Below, piece after piece: positions 5,299-14,857 of a stretch of 43,715 nucleotides of DNA; the stretch's first letter is position 1, and every line of letters begins with the position of its first letter. This DNA comes from an uncultured Gammaproteobacteria bacterium. Lineage in GTDB: Bacteria > Pseudomonadota > Gammaproteobacteria > Steroidobacterales > UBA11654. A program made the position numbers and the translations under genes. A model generated the notes under the pieces. The model worked only from the letters and a program-made list of their open reading frames with translations, was not told where the DNA came from and did no database searches. The stretch is taken from the NCBI GenBank assembly GCA_902634075.1, contig CACPJA010000010.1, positions 1 through 43,715 of the forward strand. Reading direction: 5' to 3'.

Positions 5299-5326
5299 TT
5301 GTCGGCGCTGATTTTGATGATATAAT
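5299..5326 (+). promoter_or_regulatory. Sigma-70-like promoter of the envelope operon
   Basis: A perfect -10 box TATAAT (5321-5326) is preceded by TGA, giving an extended -10 (TGnTATAAT). TTGTCG (5299-5304) lies 16 bp upstream as a four-of-six -35 box. Transcription would start near 5332, about 30 bases before the lipoprotein ATG at 5364. This is the best-formed promoter I see in the window. It precedes eight genes whose junctions overlap or lie within 12 bp of each other. Assignment is by eye. Confidence 0.6.
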
Positions 5327-5363: not shown

Positions 5364-6254
5364 ATGTCAGTAATAAGAAAATTTATTTTAGTATTAACCG
5401 TGATTGCCCTTAATGGTTGCGCGGTTCAGCAGATGAGCGCCCCCTCAGGGCCGTCTTCGCCTAGTTCTTCAAGCAGTTCACAGTCACCATCAACTACCCC
5501 ACCGAGTTCTAGTTCACGTTCCAGTTCAAGTGGTTCTCAATCACCTTCAAGCTCCTCATCGAGTTCTAGTTCACAGTCCAGTTCGAGTGGAGGAATATCT
5601 TTTCCTTCATCTCAAGGATCGATCAGTTCTCCATCCTCTCAATCTAGTTCAGCATCTACAGGAAGTGAGCAAACTTCAGGCAATCAATCATCGAGTTCGA
5701 ATGACACAGCCTCCTCAGATCAAGGCAGCAGAGGATCCAATGAATCTATGCAGGGTACCAATAGTGCTTCAGGAGCCTCGGGAACCTCTTCTGAGATGAG
5801 CTCTGGGCAATCTGCTTCCTCAGTATTTGATGAATCTCTAGGTGATTTTGATAAGGAAATGCAAGGAGAAAGGGTCATTATAGCAGCAGCTAATCAATCG
5901 CTAGGAGGGATGACTGCACAAGAGAGTGCTGATGCTGGAGCAATTCAACAAGGCAGTTTAGATGGGCCATTGGATATGGGATCTGGGCAATCTTCAGAGA
6001 TGACTGGTTCTGAAACTGAAGGCCAAGATCAAGACGAAGACAGTTCAGAAAATCAGATGGATGAGACTACGGACTCCACTTCTGGTGATCAAGATAAAAT
6101 AAAAGAGAGGATTCCGGAGGATATACCGATGGATGGAACTGGAGAGGACGTTATTGCAAGACAAATTAGAGAAGCAGCAGTTCAAGAAGATGATCCAATT
6201 ATAAGAGCAGCCCTTTGGGATGAGTATAGAAAGCATATGGGTATTAAAAAATGA
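5364..6254 (+). CDS. Serine-rich lipoprotein, first gene of the envelope operon
   Basis: Unrecognised family. A type II signal peptide is visible: basic start MSVIRK, hydrophobic stretch, lipobox LNGC with Cys19 as the lipidated residue, so the mature protein should be membrane-anchored (probably outer membrane). Residues about 29-116 are almost entirely Ser, Gln, Pro and Gly, a flexible linker-like region. The middle (about 117-255) is acidic and Gln/Ser-rich. The last 40 residues change character and look folded, with EDVIARQIREAAVQEDDP and LWDEYRKHMG forming a probable helical motif. The gene starts 38 bp after the TATAAT box, with AGAGAAGAG just upstream. Its TGA overlaps the next ATG (ATGA). 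The long linker would let the C-terminal helix reach a partner in the periplasm; that role is inference. Confidence 0.85.
   Translation: MSVIRKFILVLTVIALNGCAVQQMSAPSGPSSPSSSSSSQSPSTTPPSSSSRSSSSGSQSPSSSSSSSSSQSSSSGGISFPSSQGSISSPSSQSSSASTGSEQTSGNQSSSSNDTASSDQGSRGSNESMQGTNSASGASGTSSEMSSGQSASSVFDESLGDFDKEMQGERVIIAAANQSLGGMTAQESADAGAIQQGSLDGPLDMGSGQSSEMTGSETEGQDQDEDSSENQMDETTDSTSGDQDKIKERIPEDIPMDGTGEDVIARQIREAAVQEDDPIIRAALWDEYRKHMGIKK
5448..5711 (+). repeat. Low-complexity Ser-coding stretch
   Basis: This part of the lipoprotein gene is built from short imperfect repeats of tca/agt/tct serine codons mixed with cag and cct. Short blocks recur, such as agttctagttcacg/agttctagttcacag. It encodes the Ser-rich linker. 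Such tracts are prone to slippage and length variation, so the linker length may differ between strains. Confidence 0.7.
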
Positions 6255-7459
6255 AAATAATTGAAATTCGACAAAGCCTACTAGCCTTAAAGAATCTCAG
6301 TATTGTTGTTTTCTTTATGTTTAGCGTCATCGTTGTCGAAGCTAAAACAATTCAATATGAAAAAGTTGGTTTGGATCGCGCACAGATTGAGCTTCCGCCA
6401 GAAGAGCTTCTTGATATCGGGATTTTGCTTTTTGATCCAAACATACCCGAGGAAGAGGACGATTTTATCTTCCCAGAAATTAGGAAAGCTGAGGCTAGAT
6501 ATATGCCTTTTCACTTAAAGAAAACTTTACAAGATACTGGTTTTTGGGGAGGTGTATGGGTCTTACCTGAAACTTCAGAAGCAATTGACCTTATTGTTAC
6601 TGGAAGGATAGAGGTATCAGATGGTTTAGATATTTCAATCAGGATAGGCGTCTGGGATATCACTGGAAAGGAGTGGATCAATAAAGTCTATTCGTCCACC
6701 ATCGCCCAAAGTTCATACAGCAAGAGAAGAGATTTAACACAGGATCCCTATCAAAATGTTTATAACAAAATAGCTAATGATTTGGTAAAAATTAAACAAC
6801 AATATGAGACCGAACAGCTAGAGAGAATTAGTGAAATAGGCGACATAAGGTTCGCAGCAGAATTGATACCCAATGTCTACAATGAATATTTAGTTAAAGA
6901 CAAAAAAAATATTTATCAAGCTCAACGATTACCGGATGATGATGACGCCATTATGCAAAGGGTTTATAACATTCAGGAAAGAGAGTTTCTACTCTTGGAC
7001 ACACTGAATGAATACTACGCTCAACTTTATGAAAATATTTCACAACCCTACGAAGATTGGCGAAAGCTCTCAAGAGAAGACATGATCACTTATCAAGAAT
7101 TGAAGAAATCAGCAAGAACAAGGCAGTTACTCGGAGCAGCAGCCTTATTGGGTGCAATTGCCTCCGATGGTGATAGTCGAGCCAGTAGCACCATGAGACA
7201 AATGGCAATCTATGGGGGCATGGAAGCAATGAGAAGCGGCTTTGGGAAAGCATCTGAAGCAAAAATATACAAAGAATCTATGAAAGAGCTTGGAACAGCT
7301 TTTGATTCCCAAGCAGAACCTCTAATTATAGAATTAGAAGGCCAAACCATAAGATTGACAGGTAATGCACAAGAAAAATTTCTTGAATGGAGGAAGTTGC
7401 TCAAGCAGATTTATATTGATGAGACTGGCTTTCAAATTTCAGACTCGTCAGTTCAGTAA
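6251..7459 (+). CDS. Secreted 402-aa protein of the envelope operon, function unknown
   Basis: I do not recognise the family. A hydrophobic N-terminal segment (about residues 16-29) ending VVEA followed by KT looks like a Sec signal peptide cleaved near Ala31. Residues about 50-190 (GILLFDPNIPEEE, then DLIVTGRIEVSDG and VWDITGKEW) resemble the alternating strands of TolB-N/CsgG-like periplasmic domains; this is a weak visual likeness. The middle is helical and charged. A short hydrophobic Ala/Gly/Leu patch (LLGAAALLGAIAS, near 290-302) could insert in a membrane or pack in a helical bundle. The ATG overlaps the TGA of the lipoprotein gene, so the two are translationally coupled and probably needed together. 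An outer-membrane-associated periplasmic component is the most natural guess. Confidence 0.8.
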   Translation: MKIIEIRQSLLALKNLSIVVFFMFSVIVVEAKTIQYEKVGLDRAQIELPPEELLDIGILLFDPNIPEEEDDFIFPEIRKAEARYMPFHLKKTLQDTGFWGGVWVLPETSEAIDLIVTGRIEVSDGLDISIRIGVWDITGKEWINKVYSSTIAQSSYSKRRDLTQDPYQNVYNKIANDLVKIKQQYETEQLERISEIGDIRFAAELIPNVYNEYLVKDKKNIYQAQRLPDDDDAIMQRVYNIQEREFLLLDTLNEYYAQLYENISQPYEDWRKLSREDMITYQELKKSARTRQLLGAAALLGAIASDGDSRASSTMRQMAIYGGMEAMRSGFGKASEAKIYKESMKELGTAFDSQAEPLIIELEGQTIRLTGNAQEKFLEWRKLLKQIYIDETGFQISDSSVQ

Positions 7460-7467
7460 ACTAAGCC

Positions 7468-8961
7468 ATGAAAAAGACTACTCCTGAAGAATCAGAGTCA
7501 ATCGAATTAACTGAGAATCAATCTGAGGATAAGACGATCCATCAGAAGAGGCTTGACCGCCAAAGTCAGCAGCAAGTTAAGCCAGCAACAGCCTATTCTC
7601 TGCTCTCAGTCTTGGCAGTGGTTCTTGTTATTGTGGTTTTTGTTCTACCAAGGTTTGTTGCTGAGAATGAGGTGAACATTTCAGATGAGGGTGTAGAGGA
7701 TGGAAATACTGAAGTACTTTTAAATGAGGCAGTCTTAGCTCAAAAACCAATAGCTGAAGCGCTGCTATCTGAAATGTTGAGTAAGATGGATGATCTAAAA
7801 TCGAGCGGGGTTCAGTTATGGGCTGAAGAGCAATGGGCAAGGATTAGAGACCTTCAATCTCAGGGAGACGAGGCATACCTTAATAGAGGTTATGATATAG
7901 CTGCTGAGAGCTATCGAGAAGCAATGCAGTTGCTTACGGATCTTGAAATTACGATACCAGAAACTTTAGAAAGTGCTCTTCTACTGGGACAAGAATCTAT
8001 CGTTCAAGGCGATAAAAACCTGGCAATAGCAAATTTTGAAACGGCATTAGCTATAGACGGAGGCAACGAGTTGGCTAGGAAAGGTCTTAATAGAGCTCTT
8101 AAGCTAGACAAGGTAATTGAATACTCTCAGTTAGGAGAGAGATTAAGTGAACAAAGAGAGTGGAGCGAATCGATCGTAGCTTTTGAAAAAGCCTTAGCGA
8201 TTGACCCCGAATGGTTGCAGGCACAACAGGGGTTTTCAAAAGCGATCTTAGAAAACGATAAAGAGCAATTTCAATCCTCGCTTTCAAAGGGCTATGCCTT
8301 GATGAAGGAAGAAAAATTTGATGAAGCCGAAGCAGCATTTCAAAAAAGCTTGGAGATTGATCCTGAATCTAAAGCAGGACAACAAGCTATTGAAGAATTA
8401 GAGATTCAGAGGAGAACCTCACTTACAAAATCTCTCAAGTACAAGGGATTAATTGCTGAGGTTAATGAGGAGTGGGACGAAGCCAAATCATATTATGAAA
8501 CAATACTTAATTTTGATTCTAATATTGGTGAAGTTAAAGATAGTTTGATAAGAGTAAATAGCCGGATTCGTTTAATAAATCAGATGATTTCTTTTATTGC
8601 ACAAGCTGAAAATCTGAATGATGACAAATTATTTAATCAAGCTCAACAAGCCTTAATACAAGCCCAATCTATTATGAATAAGGGTCCAAAAATGACCCAA
8701 CAAATCAGTGAATTAGATCAAACTTTAAAGATAGCTTCCACACCCGTTGAGGTTACTCTTATTTCAGATCTTAAAACAGATGTGGTTCTCTATAAAACAG
8801 GAAAGTTCGGTCTTTTTGAGCAAAAAAAAATTCTTCTGAAACCTGGAGTTTACACGGCAAAAGGAACCCGAATTGGGTACAGGGATACAACATTGAGATT
8901 TAAAGTCAGCCCAGAGAATTTAGATCAAAGGTTTATAATCATATGCAGAGATAGGATATGA
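7468..8961 (+). CDS. Membrane-anchored tetratricopeptide-repeat protein
   Basis: 497 aa. A polar, basic cytoplasmic tail (1-40) leads to one membrane helix (about 42-61, SLLSVLAVVLVIVVFVLP), after which the acidic remainder should lie in the periplasm. Residues about 125-350 hold several TPR units with the usual A-x-x-x-Y/F-x-x-A-L spacing, for example AAESYREAMQ, AIANFETALAID, SIVAFEKALAID, AEAAFQKSLEID and AKSYYETIL. The last 70 residues (from STPVEVTLIS, with KPGVYTAKGTRIGY) look like a PEGA-type beta domain, the same type repeated in the next gene. TPRs usually hold protein partners, so this is likely a scaffold for the operon's other periplasmic parts (inference). It follows the previous gene by 8 bp and its TGA overlaps the next ATG. 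Confidence 0.85.
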   Translation: MKKTTPEESESIELTENQSEDKTIHQKRLDRQSQQQVKPATAYSLLSVLAVVLVIVVFVLPRFVAENEVNISDEGVEDGNTEVLLNEAVLAQKPIAEALLSEMLSKMDDLKSSGVQLWAEEQWARIRDLQSQGDEAYLNRGYDIAAESYREAMQLLTDLEITIPETLESALLLGQESIVQGDKNLAIANFETALAIDGGNELARKGLNRALKLDKVIEYSQLGERLSEQREWSESIVAFEKALAIDPEWLQAQQGFSKAILENDKEQFQSSLSKGYALMKEEKFDEAEAAFQKSLEIDPESKAGQQAIEELEIQRRTSLTKSLKYKGLIAEVNEEWDEAKSYYETILNFDSNIGEVKDSLIRVNSRIRLINQMISFIAQAENLNDDKLFNQAQQALIQAQSIMNKGPKMTQQISELDQTLKIASTPVEVTLISDLKTDVVLYKTGKFGLFEQKKILLKPGVYTAKGTRIGYRDTTLRFKVSPENLDQRFIIICRDRI

Positions 8962-11336
8962 AGATTATTTTAAAAGAATCAGACAGTGAAAGGTCATTAA
9001 GCCTTCATGATTTACCTATAAGGATAGGGTCTGATCTAAACACTGATATTAAGATTTCAGGATCACTTTCACTGGGTGTGGCCATGATCATTGATTTAAT
9101 TGATGACCGGTATGTTTTGCAAAAAATCAACCCCACTCTTGAGGCTATGATTAATAGAGATCCTTTGACAGGCAATCACTGGATCAGCGATGGTGATCAA
9201 TTGGAGGTCTCAGATAAGTTGATTAGTTTTAATCTCTCTTCTGAATTACTAGAAGTTAACGTGAGTAATCTTTCAATTGAGAATCAACCAACTCAATTTG
9301 AGAAAAGGCAAAGTGAGAGCATTTTCCAAAATAAGCTTTTTCAAAGATTTGGTCTTGTCTTTTTCTTGGCGCTAACTTATTTCTTATTTTATTTATTCAC
9401 CTCAAAGGCTGTAGAGATTAGAACAACACCGGGCGATGCAAATATTAGTGTTTCTGGGGGGTTTTTTCCTCATTTAAAAATTAGTGGTCGTTTTTTACTC
9501 CGTCCTGGAGAGTATCAAGCTCATTATTCTAAGTCGGGTTATTTCTCTGACACCTTGGTTATTGAGATTAATGAAAAATCTTCACAAGTTATTGATATTA
9601 ATTTAAAAAAACTACCAGGAGTGATTCAATTTAAAACACAACCCGATGTTGATTATGAGCTTTATGTTAATGAAGAAAGAATCAAATCTGACACAGAGGG
9701 AAGTTACTCGATAGAAGCTGGAAAACAAAATATTGAACTGAGATTTGAAAAATATTTTTCTATCCAGGAACAATTGATTATAGAAGGTATGAATCAAGAG
9801 CAACAATTCATCTTTGATCTTGAGCCTGCATGGGCAGATGTTCAGATAAATACAGACCCAAGTGAAGCTGAAGTCATCCTCGATGGACAGAATAAAGGTT
9901 TTAGTCCTTTGGACCTAGATGTCATTGATGGTGACCATACTGTTTTAATTAGAAAATCAGGTTATAAGGATCTCACTTCAGAATTATCAGTTGAGGCTGG
10001 TGAAGAGATTATCACAGAACCCTTTAAGCTAGCTCGACTTGACAGCAAACTCCAAATTATAAGCTCCCCTGAAGGGGCATCGGTAAATCTGAATTCAGTC
10101 TATTTAGGAATGACTCCTATTGATTTGGAGCTAGAGCCGCTTGTAACTCATTTAATCAGCTTCTCAAAGCCTGGTTTTAGAACTCAAGACAAAAGTATTC
10201 AATTGGATACGGTTGAAACACTGAAATCCACGGGTAAAGATTCTGAGCTACTAAAAGTGGATCTGCAACCAATTTATGGAAATGTGAACATCCAAGGAAC
10301 AAAAGACGCCTTGGTGATAAATAATAATGAAACTATCGGGCGTATACCTCTAAAGGTAAATTTAATTGCAAAAGAACAAACCCTAACGGTTAAAAAAGAT
10401 GGCCTTGTTACCCAAGAAATAAAAGTCAAACCGACACCTGGCTTTGATCAGACCTTAAATATTAGATTACTAACTGAGGAGGAGGCAGTCTTAGCCGCCA
10501 TGCCAAAGTTCTTAAAGACTTCTCAAGGTCTTGAGATGAGATTAATATCCCCTGGTCAATTTATTATGGGAACCCCCAGAAGGTCACAAGGGCGACAATC
10601 AAATGAGAGTGAAAGACTAATTGGAATTACCAAACCTTTTTATGTGGGTACTCGAGAAGTGATCAATAATGAATTTAGAGCTTTTAATCCAAAGCATACT
10701 TCAGGAGCTGAATCATATAGAGAACTCTCTAACGGGTTTCATCCGACAGTCATGGTGACTTGGGAAGAAGCAGCTAAATTTTGTAACTGGTTAAGCGAGA
10801 AGGAATCTTTGAGACCAGCTTACAGTTTGGTTGATGGAAAATTAAAATTGATTACTCCCATTACTAATGGCTATCGTCTTCTCACAGAGGCCGAGTGGGA
10901 ATGGGTAGCAAGATATAACGGTGGCGGGGGTAAGCAGAAATACCCTTGGGGCGAAAGTATGCCACCCGAGGAGAATTCAGGAAATTATGCGGATGAATCT
11001 GCCGAGAGTCTTATGACTAATGTGTTGTCGAATTATTGGGACGGTTATCCAGTCTCTTCCCCAAGCAATAAATTCAAACCCAACAGCATCGGTATTTATG
11101 ATTTAGGCGGCAATGTCTCTGAATGGGTGAATGATTATTATTCAACGATTAATAGACAAGTTAATGAGCTTAATAAGGATCCTATTGGACCTGAGGAGGG
11201 GAGTATGAGGGTAATCCGTGGATCAAGTTGGCGTCATTCAACCATTACTGCATTAAGATTCGCTTACCGAGACTATGGCACACAAGGCAGATTAGATGTT
11301 GGTTTTAGGATTGCAAGGTATACTGAAAACGAATAA
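8958..11336 (+). CDS. FHA-like / TM / PEGA-repeat / formylglycine-enzyme-like protein
   Basis: 792 aa, multidomain. Residues 1-92 look like a degenerate FHA domain (RIGS at 22-25, all-beta spacing) in the cytoplasm; the usual Ser/His/Asn phosphopeptide residues are not obvious. One membrane helix spans about 131-149. Then come about five PEGA-type beta repeats (about 151-218, 221-288, 290-358, 362-437, 440-505) marked by TTPGDANISV, TDPSEAEVILDG, SSPEGASVNLNS and G-x-T/R-P-(I/L). Residues about 521-790 are an FGE/SUMF1 (EgtB/PvdO) domain: GQFIMGTP, WEEAAKFCNWLS, RLLTEAEWEWVARY, YPWGE, GIYDLGGNVSEWV, VIRGSSW and VGFRIAR. The active-site cysteines of true formylglycine-generating enzymes, expected just after RGSSW, are missing, so it is probably a binding domain or has changed chemistry. 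The ATG overlaps the TPR gene's stop. Confidence 0.88.
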   Translation: MKIILKESDSERSLSLHDLPIRIGSDLNTDIKISGSLSLGVAMIIDLIDDRYVLQKINPTLEAMINRDPLTGNHWISDGDQLEVSDKLISFNLSSELLEVNVSNLSIENQPTQFEKRQSESIFQNKLFQRFGLVFFLALTYFLFYLFTSKAVEIRTTPGDANISVSGGFFPHLKISGRFLLRPGEYQAHYSKSGYFSDTLVIEINEKSSQVIDINLKKLPGVIQFKTQPDVDYELYVNEERIKSDTEGSYSIEAGKQNIELRFEKYFSIQEQLIIEGMNQEQQFIFDLEPAWADVQINTDPSEAEVILDGQNKGFSPLDLDVIDGDHTVLIRKSGYKDLTSELSVEAGEEIITEPFKLARLDSKLQIISSPEGASVNLNSVYLGMTPIDLELEPLVTHLISFSKPGFRTQDKSIQLDTVETLKSTGKDSELLKVDLQPIYGNVNIQGTKDALVINNNETIGRIPLKVNLIAKEQTLTVKKDGLVTQEIKVKPTPGFDQTLNIRLLTEEEAVLAAMPKFLKTSQGLEMRLISPGQFIMGTPRRSQGRQSNESERLIGITKPFYVGTREVINNEFRAFNPKHTSGAESYRELSNGFHPTVMVTWEEAAKFCNWLSEKESLRPAYSLVDGKLKLITPITNGYRLLTEAEWEWVARYNGGGGKQKYPWGESMPPEENSGNYADESAESLMTNVLSNYWDGYPVSSPSNKFKPNSIGIYDLGGNVSEWVNDYYSTINRQVNELNKDPIGPEEGSMRVIRGSSWRHSTITALRFAYRDYGTQGRLDVGFRIARYTENE

Positions 11337-11346
11337 ATTAAAGACT

Positions 11347-11604
11347 GTGAAAGAAAAAATATCAATAACTTTAACGATACTATTGCTTGGATTTAGCCTA
11401 GGTATCGGAGCCGTGTATTCTCAATCTGAAGAACAAACAGCTCCCGATAATAGTATGAGCAAGACTCAAGAAGAGATTGATCAAGAATTACAACAGGAAT
11501 TAGACAGAATACAGGCTGCCTATGAAGAGGAAACACTTGAAGAGTTTATTCCTTCCGAGCCATTATCTGCAGATGTTTCTGTTAGTTTTCCATCGGATAT
11601 ATAA
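11347..11604 (+). CDS. Small acidic secreted protein of the envelope operon
   Basis: About 85 aa if started at the GTG at 11347, 10 bp after the previous stop. The frame is open back to an ATG at 11296, but that start would overlap the preceding gene by 41 bp and bury the signal sequence. From the GTG the protein begins VKEKISITLTILLLGFSLG, a clean Sec signal peptide ending near AVYSQ. The mature part is short, acidic and Gln/Glu-rich (EEIDQELQQELDRIQAAYEE), likely one amphipathic helix. No homologue comes to mind. Because it is encoded just before the channel gene, it may be a periplasmic accessory peptide of that complex (inference). The start codon is uncertain. Confidence 0.65.
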   Translation: MKEKISITLTILLLGFSLGIGAVYSQSEEQTAPDNSMSKTQEEIDQELQQELDRIQAAYEEETLEEFIPSEPLSADVSVSFPSDI

Positions 11605-11616
11605 ACAGGGGATTCA

Positions 11617-12417
11617 ATGAACACACAAAATCTTTCAAAGGAATTTTTATACCAAGGATTCGCATTAATTTTATCTATCATCCTGGTACACGCTTTTTAC
11701 GTCTCAGTTGTTCGACCAGAGGCTGCCTCGATAATACAAGAACAGCAAGCCATGATAGAGCAAGATATTAACTATGTCCCTGAACGATCTTTTTACGTCA
11801 TTGTTAGGGATTTTGAGCAAGAGGCTTGTTTTATTTTGATGCTTTGGGCGTTTGCAATTATGACCCTTAAGGCACAATCATCGATTAATGAAAGAAGACT
11901 ATTGCAAGAAGACCTCATTCCTATTCGAGAGGGTCAGAGTATTAAGCCTGAGGATTCAAAAGACTTTCTGAGACAATTAGAAAATTTACCTGAATCCAAG
12001 AGGCAACTTTTATTACCTCGTATTCTGATGAATGGGTTAAAACGTTTTTCCACCACAAAAAATGTTCAAGATGTTTCCACGTCAACGCACACAATGGTTG
12101 AATCGGAAGCTGATCGATTGGAATCAGAGCTATCAATGATACGTTATATAGCATGGGCAATTCCGTCGATTGGTTTTATTGGAACGGTTAGAGGCATTGG
12201 AGCAGCTCTTTCATTGGCCCACAGAGCCGTTGATGGTGATATTAGTGGCGTCACCCAGAATCTCGGCGTGGCTTTCAATTCAACTTTTATCGCATTGTTG
12301 ATTAGTATTGTCATTATGTTTTTGGTGCATCAGCTTCAATTACTTCAAGAGCGTCAGATTTTCGAAACAGAAGGTTACTGCGATCAAAATTTAATCACCC
12401 ATCTTAAGGGAGATTAG
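11617..12417 (+). CDS. MotA/TolQ/ExbB-family proton-channel protein
   Basis: 266 aa inner-membrane protein. Membrane segments are at about 12-30, 70-86, 174-197 and 217-238, with a cytoplasmic helical region (87-173) between the second and third. The third helix carries the family signature AIPSIGFIGTVRGIGAA with Thr190. The fourth reads LGVAFNSTFIALLIS with Thr223. These Thr positions correspond to the polar residues lining the ion path in TolQ/ExbB/MotA. A good Shine-Dalgarno (AGGGG) precedes the ATG. Family members form pentamers around a dimer of one-helix partners (TolR, ExbD, MotB). The two genes immediately downstream supply such helices, so this is most likely the stator of a proton- or sodium-driven complex. 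It is not tolQ itself: no tolR/tolA/tolB/pal genes are nearby and the partners carry vWA domains. Confidence 0.88.
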   Translation: MNTQNLSKEFLYQGFALILSIILVHAFYVSVVRPEAASIIQEQQAMIEQDINYVPERSFYVIVRDFEQEACFILMLWAFAIMTLKAQSSINERRLLQEDLIPIREGQSIKPEDSKDFLRQLENLPESKRQLLLPRILMNGLKRFSTTKNVQDVSTSTHTMVESEADRLESELSMIRYIAWAIPSIGFIGTVRGIGAALSLAHRAVDGDISGVTQNLGVAFNSTFIALLISIVIMFLVHQLQLLQERQIFETEGYCDQNLITHLKGD

Positions 12418-12429
12418 TGGCAGTTATTT

Positions 12430-13524
12430 ATGGCCAGAAGACAATTTAGCGTTTTCAACTTATCATTTCTTGATGTAATCTCATGCGGTTTTGGAGCTGT
12501 GATTTTGTTCTTTATGATTATAAATTCTCAGGTTAAAAGTCGGAGTGATCAGGCAAGCTCAGAACTCCAATCAGAGACTAAACTGCTTGAGGAACAAATA
12601 TTTGATGAGCAAAAACAATTGGTAAGGCTTAATAATTCATTAGAAAAGACAGAAAAAGAAAATACACTTATCCAAGGAAGTGTCAGTGAATTACAAGAGA
12701 AACTAGAAGAGCTATTAAAAGAGATTGAGTTTTATGAAAATAATTCCCTAGCCTCTGAGAACGATATCAAGCGACTTCAATCGGATATTCAACAGCTAAT
12801 GGAATCCAATAAAAGAATGAGTGCTCAGGCAGCACTTGAGGCCTCTAATCCTGGGAGATCGCTCAGAGAGTTTATCGGTGATGGCAATCGTCAATATCTT
12901 ACTGAGCTAAAACTGGGTGGCAAACACGTTCTTTTTTTGGTTGATTCATCAGCAAGTATGTTAGGCAGGACCTATGTCAATGTTATACGTTACAGAAACA
13001 TGCAAGACAGTCAGAAGGTTAAGGCACCAAAATGGAGGCAAACAGTAAATAGTGTGGACTGGCTAACAACTCGTCTAACTGAAGGTACTAAGTTCCAAAT
13101 CTACACTTTTAATGAATCAACCGTTAGTGCAATAAAGGACTCTGAAGGTGATTGGCTTGAGGTGACAGATGGAACAACCATTGCAAAAGCCATGAATGAA
13201 CTAAGATCAACAATTCCTCAAAACGGAACAAGCCTGATCAAAGCGTTTGAGATGATAGATGATCTAGAACCTAGGCCTGATAATATTTTTTTGTTAACTG
13301 ACGGTTTACCCACTCAGGGAAGGCGCGACTCAAACCCTGGCACAATGGTTAAGCCAGAACAACGAATAAGATATTTCGATCAGGCACTTAGAGAGTTACC
13401 TCCGATTCCAGTAAATGTGCTGTTGTTTCCAATGGATGGAGACCCTTCTGCTGCCGAGGCATACTGGCGTCTTGCCATACGTTCCAAGGGAAGTTTTATG
13501 GCTCCATCAAGGGATTGGCCATAA
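12430..13524 (+). CDS. TolR/ExbD-like membrane helix fused to coiled coil and vWA domain (copy 1)
   Basis: 364 aa. A short basic tail (MARRQ) precedes one membrane helix (about 11-32) written FNLSFLDVISCGFGAVILFF. Asp15 sits where TolR, ExbD and MotB carry the ion-binding Asp (compare the LLDVLLVLL pattern of TolR). Residues about 36-135 are a charged coiled coil. Residues about 165-360 form a von Willebrand A domain with a full metal-ion-dependent adhesion site: Asp172-x-Ser174-x-Ser176 in LVDSSASM, Thr267 in QNGTSL and Asp291 in LLTDGLPT. Topology would be N-in with the vWA domain in the periplasm. It starts 12 bp after the channel gene and its TAA shares a base with the next ATG. I know of no named family with this exact architecture, though related hypothetical proteins may be annotated simply as vWA proteins. 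Confidence 0.88.
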   Translation: MARRQFSVFNLSFLDVISCGFGAVILFFMIINSQVKSRSDQASSELQSETKLLEEQIFDEQKQLVRLNNSLEKTEKENTLIQGSVSELQEKLEELLKEIEFYENNSLASENDIKRLQSDIQQLMESNKRMSAQAALEASNPGRSLREFIGDGNRQYLTELKLGGKHVLFLVDSSASMLGRTYVNVIRYRNMQDSQKVKAPKWRQTVNSVDWLTTRLTEGTKFQIYTFNESTVSAIKDSEGDWLEVTDGTTIAKAMNELRSTIPQNGTSLIKAFEMIDDLEPRPDNIFLLTDGLPTQGRRDSNPGTMVKPEQRIRYFDQALRELPPIPVNVLLFPMDGDPSAAEAYWRLAIRSKGSFMAPSRDWP

Positions 13525-14501
13525 TGAGAAAAAGACGAAATATGGAAACTTTCAATCTTTCTTTTTTGGATGTGGTTTGTTGTGGTTTTGGAGCGGTTAT
13601 TTTACTACTGGTTATTACCAAAATTTATGAACCAGTGACCATTGAGAAGAGTCGTGAAGATTTACAAGAGTTAATTGTTAAGTTGGAGCGAGAACTTAAT
13701 GAGATCAGAGGCGATTCAACTGTGATTAATCGAGACTTAAAGGAAATTGAGGAGCAGCTCTCAGAAAATAAAAAGAAAAAGAATAAACTAGCCGGTGATC
13801 TTTCAGAGATGGAAGGAGAGTTTAGTGCAACTAGATCTATGTCCGAGGAGTCAACAGGAACAATGAACAGTTTGCTCTCAGCAAAACAGACCTTAACGGA
13901 TGAAATGAAGAGATTGCTCAAAGATTATAATCCAATTGATGACTCAACTGTGGGAGGCATTCCTGTAGATAGCGAGTATATTATTTTCGTCATAGATACC
14001 TCGGGTAGTATGTATCAAGGACCTTGGAATCTAGTGATACAAAAGATTACTGAAACCCTAAGCGTTTACCCCAGAGTTAAAGGCATACAAGTTTTAAATG
14101 ATGAGGGTGAATATATGTTTGGGACCTATAGTGGTCGATGGATCCCAGACTCACCAGAAATTAGGCAAAATATTACCCGAACGCTGCGATTCTGGAATCC
14201 CTATAGTGATTCAAGTCCCGTTGAAGGCATCACCGAAGCCATCAGTACCTTTTATGAAGAAGATAAGCAGATTAGTATTTATGTTTTTGGCGATGATTTT
14301 CCCAGAGGTTCTGTTGAGGCAGTCTGTCGGTATGTTTCTCGAATCAATAAAGCAGATCGTTTTGGAAATCGTTTAGTAAGGATTCATGGTATTGGTTTCC
14401 CAACACAGGTGGGGTATGAAAACGGAGCAAGATTTGCTCATTTAATGAGAAAGTTATCAGAGCAGAATGGGGGCACTTTTGTTGCTATTCCCCATCTATA
14501 A
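13524..14501 (+). CDS. TolR/ExbD-like membrane helix fused to coiled coil and vWA domain (copy 2)
   Basis: 325 aa from the ATG at 13524, which overlaps the preceding TAA (TAATG). A TTG nine bases upstream is a less likely start. The N-terminal helix FNLSFLDVVCCGFGAVIL matches copy 1 in 16 of 18 positions, including the Asp (Asp16). A Lys/Glu-rich coiled coil (about 40-130) and a vWA domain follow: Asp158-x-Ser160-x-Ser162 in VIDTSGSM and an acidic FGDD near 255-258. The vWA part differs strongly from copy 1, and the middle metal-site Thr is not clear. Near-identity of the helix against divergence elsewhere suggests both copies plug into the same channel, perhaps as a heterodimer, while the vWA domains bind different partners (inference). 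It ends the operon core; phhB follows 14 bp later. Confidence 0.87.
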   Translation: MRKRRNMETFNLSFLDVVCCGFGAVILLLVITKIYEPVTIEKSREDLQELIVKLERELNEIRGDSTVINRDLKEIEEQLSENKKKKNKLAGDLSEMEGEFSATRSMSEESTGTMNSLLSAKQTLTDEMKRLLKDYNPIDDSTVGGIPVDSEYIIFVIDTSGSMYQGPWNLVIQKITETLSVYPRVKGIQVLNDEGEYMFGTYSGRWIPDSPEIRQNITRTLRFWNPYSDSSPVEGITEAISTFYEEDKQISIYVFGDDFPRGSVEAVCRYVSRINKADRFGNRLVRIHGIGFPTQVGYENGARFAHLMRKLSEQNGGTFVAIPHL

Positions 14502-14515
14502 ATTAGGAGAAGAAA

Positions 14516-14857
14516 ATGAGCAATGATGATTTAGAAAATAAGAAATGTGTGCCCTGTGAGGGCGGTGTAGAACCCTTGGATATTGCTGCGGCACAGCAGA
14601 TTGCTGAGGCAATTGATCCTGAGTGGAAGATCTCGGAAGATGCAAAGGAAATTGTGAAGGAATTTAAGTTCTCAAACTACAATAAGACCATCTCGTTTGT
14701 TAATGCTGTTGCATGGATAGCTGAAGCTGAAGATCATCATCCAGATTTAACGGTTAAATACGGTTCGTGCAGAGTTGTTTATTCAACCCATTCTATCGGC
14801 GGACTCTCTGAGAATGACTTTATCTGTGCTAAAAAGATAGACAATATACTAGCTTAG
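14516..14857 (+). CDS. phhB: Pterin-4a-carbinolamine dehydratase
   Basis: Dehydrates 4a-hydroxytetrahydrobiopterin, recycling the pterin cofactor of aromatic amino acid hydroxylases. 113 aa, the usual size. The active-site motif is WIAEAEDHHPDLTVKYG with His74/His75, followed by the conserved THSIGGLSENDF. It begins 14 bp after copy 2 of the vWA gene with TTAGGAGAAG as ribosome site, so it may be read through from that operon though it has no evident link to it. No phenylalanine hydroxylase gene is in the window. Its stop overlaps the stop of the minus-strand gene by three bases. Confidence 0.9.
   Translation: MSNDDLENKKCVPCEGGVEPLDIAAAQQIAEAIDPEWKISEDAKEIVKEFKFSNYNKTISFVNAVAWIAEAEDHHPDLTVKYGSCRVVYSTHSIGGLSENDFICAKKIDNILA

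Follow-up and report, generated by a model that had tools for sequence, protein, structure and literature searches.

A candidate 5:2-type envelope motor with two different vWA partner proteins in an uncultured gammaproteobacterium

What kind of machine is built by an envelope operon in which a channel of the MotA/TolQ/ExbB type is followed by two von Willebrand factor A (vWA) proteins? The question is raised by eight genes at positions 5364 to 14501 of a 43,715-nucleotide stretch of DNA, hereafter the window, which is contig CACPJA010000010.1 (positions 1 to 43,715, forward strand) of GenBank assembly GCA_902634075.1, an uncultured member of the Gammaproteobacteria (GTDB lineage Steroidobacterales; UBA11654). 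The source is a metagenome-assembled genome (MAG) of 1.1 Mb, 77% complete, with one copy of the operon. Motors of the 5:2 type power flagella, gliding, import, secretion, and defence; their partner is usually of the ExbD or MotB type. Our analysis indicated that the operon probably builds a trans-envelope motor of this type, driven by the proton motive force, phospho-regulated in its ancestral form and perhaps doing work at the outer membrane of the kind done by Tol-Pal. Taken on its own, the reading as a motor is well supported; its role is what we infer from gene content and genome comparison.

The channel and its two vWA partners

Gene 6 (11617 to 12417, plus strand) gave a Pfam match to MotA_ExbB (PF01618) at 2.4e-15, and its profile aligned with TolQ in the PDB, placing T190 and T223 in register with both pore threonines of TolQ. 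The two residues are invariant in the channel alignment, and both pore-threonine motifs were present in all homologous loci counted (100/100). Genes 7 (12430 to 13524) and 8 (13515 to 14501), on the same strand, encode vWA proteins 1 and 2, each composed of an N-terminal hydrophobic helix with an invariant aspartate, a coiled coil, and a vWA domain with a metal ion-dependent adhesion site (MIDAS). The aspartate lies in the only transmembrane helix of either protein, as Asp15 in vWA protein 1 (MIDAS D172xSxS) and as residue 19 of the listed open reading frame (ORF) in vWA protein 2 (MIDAS DxSxS), for which ATG 13524, in a stop-start overlap, may be the start instead of TTG 13515. The helix aspartate (FLD) was found in 84 of the 87 homologues of vWA protein 1 and 87 of the 88 of vWA protein 2, and DxSxS, invariant in the alignments of both families, in every one of them (87/87 and 88/88). 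Thus, the Pfam VWA_2 calls for genes 7 and 8 are firm despite their weak scores (1.6e-4 and 1.3e-2), since the intact motif is conserved in all homologues counted.

The proteins encoded by genes 7 and 8 share only 21% identity and therefore form a heterologous pair. When PDB sequences were searched with the profile of the vWA proteins, most matches were to coiled coils and none was a useful relative, and no family match to ExbD/TolR (PF02472) was found among the eight operon proteins. Judged from sequence, the channel carries the marks of the MotA/TolQ/ExbB superfamily of 5:2 motors, namely PF01618, the pore threonines, and a partner with an aspartate in a single transmembrane helix. An earlier note on this DNA, made without database searches, had proposed such a channel with two Asp-helix vWA partners within an eight-gene envelope operon, and the data presented here and below support that proposal. 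With two different vWA proteins in the partner slots, the motor should be asymmetric and should end in metal-dependent grips.

Conservation of the operon across lineages

The closest public channels, at 92 to 93% identity, came from uncultured Gammaproteobacteria MAGs. In the window's family, 10 of 11 searched genomes retained the operon, and a channel-family match was obtained in 54 of 59 genomes of the order, most at 49% identity or more, with weak matches or none in a few families. Sampling the class evenly yielded channel matches at 1e-20 in 34 of 370 genomes, a handful of them weak, and a phylum sample yielded 12 among 398. At least 579 loci were confirmed in a GTDB scan; the best 80 of these include Woeseiaceae, Porticoccus, Microbulbifer, Desulfobacterales, and Acidobacteriota MAGs, and it is from these 80 that spread to other phyla (Desulfobacterota and Acidobacteriota MAGs) is read.

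Among the 68 loci with sufficient flank, the seven larger genes were all on one strand in 61 and in identical order in 60, and gene 5, the smallest, was found in 61. The flanks of the operon vary between families. The operon is thus a conserved unit and no accidental run of ORFs. It is widespread, occurring in many marine bacteria and also beyond their phylum. The possibility that homologues lie scattered, for which the earlier note had allowed, thus failed: the genes stay together across lineages. All seven, again colinear, were also found in a divergent branch comprising loci of another class (L131-L133) and one of the same class (L134). No channel relatives were detected on viral contigs, so there is no sign of a phage origin.

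A kinase and an FHA protein in the relatives

Comparison with the relatives brought out what the earlier note had overlooked, that the window carries a reduced set of genes. Gene 3 (7468 to 8961, plus strand) encodes a protein with one transmembrane helix (residues 42 to 60) and periplasmic tetratricopeptide repeats (TPR), the latter recognized by Pfam. In many relatives, the TPR protein bears an N-terminal Ser/Thr kinase domain (PF00069, 3.2e-35), and the genes for the channel and vWA protein 1 are separated by an additional, ninth gene. The ninth protein ends in a forkhead-associated (FHA) domain (PF00498, 2.4e-10), and its N-terminal part is predicted to adopt a fold like the nucleotide-binding domain of HSP70 (predicted local distance difference test [pLDDT], 88; TMt 0.73 to DnaK). 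The window's family has neither the kinase domain nor the ninth gene, and its genomes gave only weak kinase-family matches of about 220 to 250 amino acids. By this comparison, the operon of the window is a reduced version, both of these parts having been lost in its family.

Presence of the two parts was scored at 70 loci. A canonical FHA domain accompanied an intact kinase at 42, neither was present at 22, FHA alone at 6, and the kinase alone at none. In this count, L060 was set by hand as kinase intact (an adjacent kinase ORF has HRD), and a chance S..H placed L116 and L126 among the FHA loci, the FHA model finding none in either. The tree shows 9 to 10 changes, with independent pairs concordant at about 6:0 (p ~0.03), and dead kinase remnants sometimes persist where FHA has been lost (HGTLCPG for HRD; GFAL for DFG). 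The simplest reading of this co-variation would be a kinase-to-FHA switch that controls the motor, and such a switch in many lineages would place a 5:2 motor under phospho-control.

At L107 and L128, in MAGs labelled Desulfobacterota, the ninth gene has a canonical FHA domain and the operon kinase is absent; a kinase encoded elsewhere may serve. In addition, a deeper relative of the channel lies in a different neighbourhood, with genes for a PP2C phosphatase, FHA/trypsin-like proteins, one vWA protein, and one protein that joins kinase and PEGA (L140:9494-18952 and L141:5752-10502). This gene set is probably a second, uncharacterised phospho-regulated system, and its neighbours are consistent with the theme of phospho-control.

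The accessory proteins

Genes 1, 2, and 5 have no convincing Pfam family. Gene 1 (5364 to 6254, plus strand) encodes a lipoprotein with a signal and a cysteine at LNGC, a long Ser/Gly/Gln-rich linker, and the C-terminal peptide ARQIREAA..LWDEYRKH. Gene 5 (11296 to 11604, plus strand; GTG 11347 is a possible start) encodes a small acidic secreted protein ending in FxPSExxxADxxVxFPxDI. Both are poorly conserved except for these C-terminal peptides, which are kept in loci of Gammaproteobacteria, Desulfobacterota, and Acidobacteriota and may be docking tails. Gene 2 (6251 to 7459, plus strand) encodes a secreted protein of 402 amino acids, about half of whose homologues have a lipoprotein-like signal. 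Its predicted structure (pLDDT 81) contains a TolB-N-like domain and long helices: Foldseek hits 2 to 18 were TolB chains (best E 5.0e-4), the matches spanning some 150 to 180 columns, the size of the N-terminal domain of TolB, and no propeller was present in the model.

Gene 4 (8958 to 11336, plus strand) encodes 792 amino acids comprising a degenerate cytoplasmic FHA fold, a transmembrane helix (residues 131 to 149), PEGA repeats (2.7e-30), and a domain like the formylglycine-generating enzyme (FGE; FGE-sulfatase, 3.7e-37). The FHA-like N terminus suggested earlier was missed by Pfam and was recovered by profile comparison with the true FHA domain of the ninth gene (hhalign P 1.6e-7). It lacks the S/H residues that bind phospho-threonine, and a role as a phospho-reader was rejected. 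An active FGE was rejected as well, the C-terminal catalytic cysteines being missing; in 80 of 84 homologues, there is no cysteine within the last 60 residues. Hydropathy supports a single transmembrane helix in each of the TPR protein, the PEGA/FGE-like protein, and both vWA proteins.

Some loci differ in these accessory parts. Gene 1, sometimes with genes 2 and 3, is missing or reduced in L031, L059, L062, L064, and L067, all Gammaproteobacteria MAGs that keep the channel, the ninth gene, and the vWA genes. An extra lipoprotein-like gene, possibly an accessory part, sits directly 3′ of gene 8 in L037, L038, L049, and L050 (about 220 to 320 amino acids); in L040, L043, and L044, it lies upstream of gene 1 in divergent orientation.

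The eight ORFs are co-directional as first described, all on the plus strand, and neighbours overlap or lie 8 to 12 bp apart. A candidate promoter at 5299 to 5326 of the same strand (TTGTCG-16-TATAAT, the second hexamer being preceded by TG), 37 bp ahead of gene 1, matches the consensus at 10 of 12 positions. A scan found 23 such sites versus 28.5 ± 5.3 in shuffles, so only its position favours the assignment, and the promoter was dropped as strong evidence. Fourteen base pairs past gene 8 begins an ORF of 113 amino acids (14516 to 14857), which by eye we take to resemble pterin-4a-carbinolamine dehydratase; given this short distance, the operon transcript may continue into it.

The state of Tol-Pal in the window's family

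No match to TolB and no OmpA/Pal domain (PF00691) was found in the eleven genomes of the window's family (G000-G010), nor was the latter found among the operon proteins. A TolQ-type channel was likewise not found in the family genomes: ten of them hold, besides the operon, only TonB-type channel pairs (about 460 plus 175 to 208 amino acids), together with one weak fragment in one genome. ExbD copies are present in all eleven. All sampled relatives of the family keep both TolB and an OmpA-type domain. As a rule, the operon works alongside Tol-Pal; it was seen without it only in the window's family. The absence of Tol-Pal there, together with the TolB-N-like fold of gene 2, makes envelope tethering the best single guess at a role.

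A proposed mechanism and its weighing

In the mechanism that we propose, five copies of the gene 6 protein would assemble into the channel, whose pore would be occupied by the paired helices of a heterodimer of the gene 7 and gene 8 proteins. Protons binding the helix aspartates against the threonine rings would turn or tilt the helix pair, whose movement would sweep the coiled coils and vWA domains through the periplasm. There, the MIDAS sites may grip partners held by the PEGA/dead-FGE, TPR, and TolB-N-like proteins and by the tails of genes 1 and 5, with the gene 1 lipoprotein as a flexible connection to the outer membrane. The kinase that the TPR protein carries in most relatives, on the cytoplasmic side, would mark a target, and the FHA domain of the HSP70-like ninth protein would read the mark and so gate the motor. 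In the window's family, from which the switch has been lost, the motor presumably runs without it.

The job of such a motor, taken alone, can be named only tentatively, well short of an even chance, as a task of the Tol-Pal kind, either force-dependent tethering of the outer membrane or upkeep of the envelope. A bolder proposal, which we regard as fairly unlikely, would make it an undescribed, ancestrally kinase/FHA-gated motor doing the force-dependent work of Tol-Pal through a vWA heterodimer, with no other system of that kind left in a family of marine bacteria that has lost TolQ, TolB, and all OmpA/Pal anchors. A family without Tol-Pal that has kept the operon offers a direct route to ask whether both share one job.

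Several points weigh against a motor with a Tol-Pal-like role. The structure predictions are of single chains, and a search of full-text literature, which left subscription papers and preprints outside, found no phenotype report for the operon. Several families of the order have no operon, which is therefore dispensable there. At six loci, two of them misread, an FHA domain occurs with no intact operon kinase. The profile-profile comparison of gene 2 with TolB (hhalign) aligned one stretch at E 0.04, which is not significant, so the likeness holds at the level of fold only, and sequence-level homology was not kept. That the window's family has lost Tol-Pal is read from incomplete MAGs, though eleven agree. 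Finally, TolB was found in 345 of the 370 genomes of the class sample, including every other operon bearer, so the operon is no general stand-in for Tol-Pal, and that idea was rejected.

Among the other explanations, a surface machine for adhesion or gliding, in which the motor drives vWA adhesion modules as Agl-Glt works with the vWA lipoprotein CglB at the focal adhesions of Myxococcus, survives best and still seems unlikely. The vWA domains keep an intact MIDAS, a gliding link has been suggested for related vWA proteins (PMC12204202), and the Agl-Glt core complex also occurs in Gammaproteobacteria, where its function is unknown (PMC3169522). However, neither a Pfam-recognisable outer-membrane barrel nor a TonB-type transducer was found among the eight proteins, and the operon is retained in streamlined genomes of 1.3 to 1.6 Mb in a family without OmpA-type anchors.

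We consider it decidedly unlikely that the operon encodes a motor for secretion or assembly working as GldKLMN does in type IX secretion, in which the dead-FGE protein would be the ring part. GldK/PorK is indeed the best match of gene 4 among curated NCBI models (1.7e-31), PorK was matched in the PDB search (2.8e-26), and GldK also adjoins a 5:2 motor. Yet what is matched is the FGE fold, which is widespread, and the score is 110 bits against a GldK cut-off of 350, with weak GldJ matches on the same domain, and GldL, GldM, and GldN have no family match among the eight proteins.

Still more improbable is a device that is no motor, an ion- or force-gated sensor whose channel reports the state of the envelope to the kinase and FHA protein, with the vWA proteins as sensing arms. 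The tight link of kinase and FHA would suit it, as would the PP2C, FHA, and kinase genes beside deeper channel relatives. However, kinase and FHA have been lost or have decayed repeatedly while the channel and the helix aspartate persist, a pattern more in keeping with an output machine whose switch is optional than with a sensor. Least probable by our estimate is TonB-like uptake or a Zorya-like anti-phage system: the channel family is common to ExbB and ZorA, and PADLOC gave a weak ZorA2 match (E 0.0014), but the eight proteins contain no TonB C-terminal domain, the same genomes hold separate TonB-type ExbB/ExbD sets, PADLOC found no defence system and no other Zorya component such as ZorB or ZorC/D/E, no relatives occur on viral contigs, and the gene set is stable over many families, unlike defence islands.

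Comparison with known systems

A proton-driven motor with vWA outputs, the reading that we prefer, can be set beside several known machines. The operon shares with ZorAB of Zorya a channel of the same superfamily. In Zorya, the channel's partner ZorB is of the OmpA type and works with effectors in the cytoplasm; the operon has neither. Agl-Glt of Myxococcus, with its gammaproteobacterial core complex (PMC3169522), is a proton motive force-driven motor with envelope partners, but a different set. It uses AglQ/AglS with AglR, whereas the operon has two vWA proteins in the place of the partner and none of the ExbD type; its accessory genes also appear to differ from those of the operon, the Glt proteins not having been searched by sequence. 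With GldKLMN/PorKLMN, which serve type IX secretion and gliding, the operon has in common a nonenzymatic FGE-like protein encoded beside a 5:2-type motor; in the operon, this protein is anchored by a transmembrane helix and carries PEGA repeats, rather than being a lipoprotein.

Tol-Pal, which the operon usually accompanies in complete form, shares with it a TolQ-type channel with both pore threonines, an outer membrane lipoprotein, a TPR protein, and the TolB-N-like fold. The operon differs in having no TolR, TolA, Pal/OmpA, or TolB propeller and in its output, a vWA heterodimer.

The closest counterpart has been predicted before. Starting from an Idiomarina query, a study in 2025 modelled a TolQ-like pentamer with a dimer of paired transpore-helix vWA (TPH-vWA) proteins inside (Mol Biol Evol 2025, Fig. 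4c-d; PMC12204202) and placed this TPH-vWA/TolQ core in Proteobacteria, with its function unknown there and other operon genes not described. The likeness, established by matching features, lies in a channel with two different vWA proteins that each bear an aspartate in the pore helix and in the lack of ExbD/TolR. That study's family is defined by a heterologous vWA pair beside a tolQ-like gene with no tolR or exbD, and this is the arrangement found in the window. Thus, the motor core is known, not new, but uncharacterised. The earlier note's statement that no named system has this set no longer holds for the channel and the paired vWA core, and stands for the other genes, which are absent from that study. 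Within the full-text search described above, it was the only paper with this combination, and it covers the motor core only. What is added here is the partner proteins and the co-loss of kinase and FHA; new are the TolB-N-like fold, the cysteine-less GldK/PorK-like FGE domain, the kinase/HSP70-FHA switch and where it has been lost, and the observation that the window's family lacks Tol-Pal.

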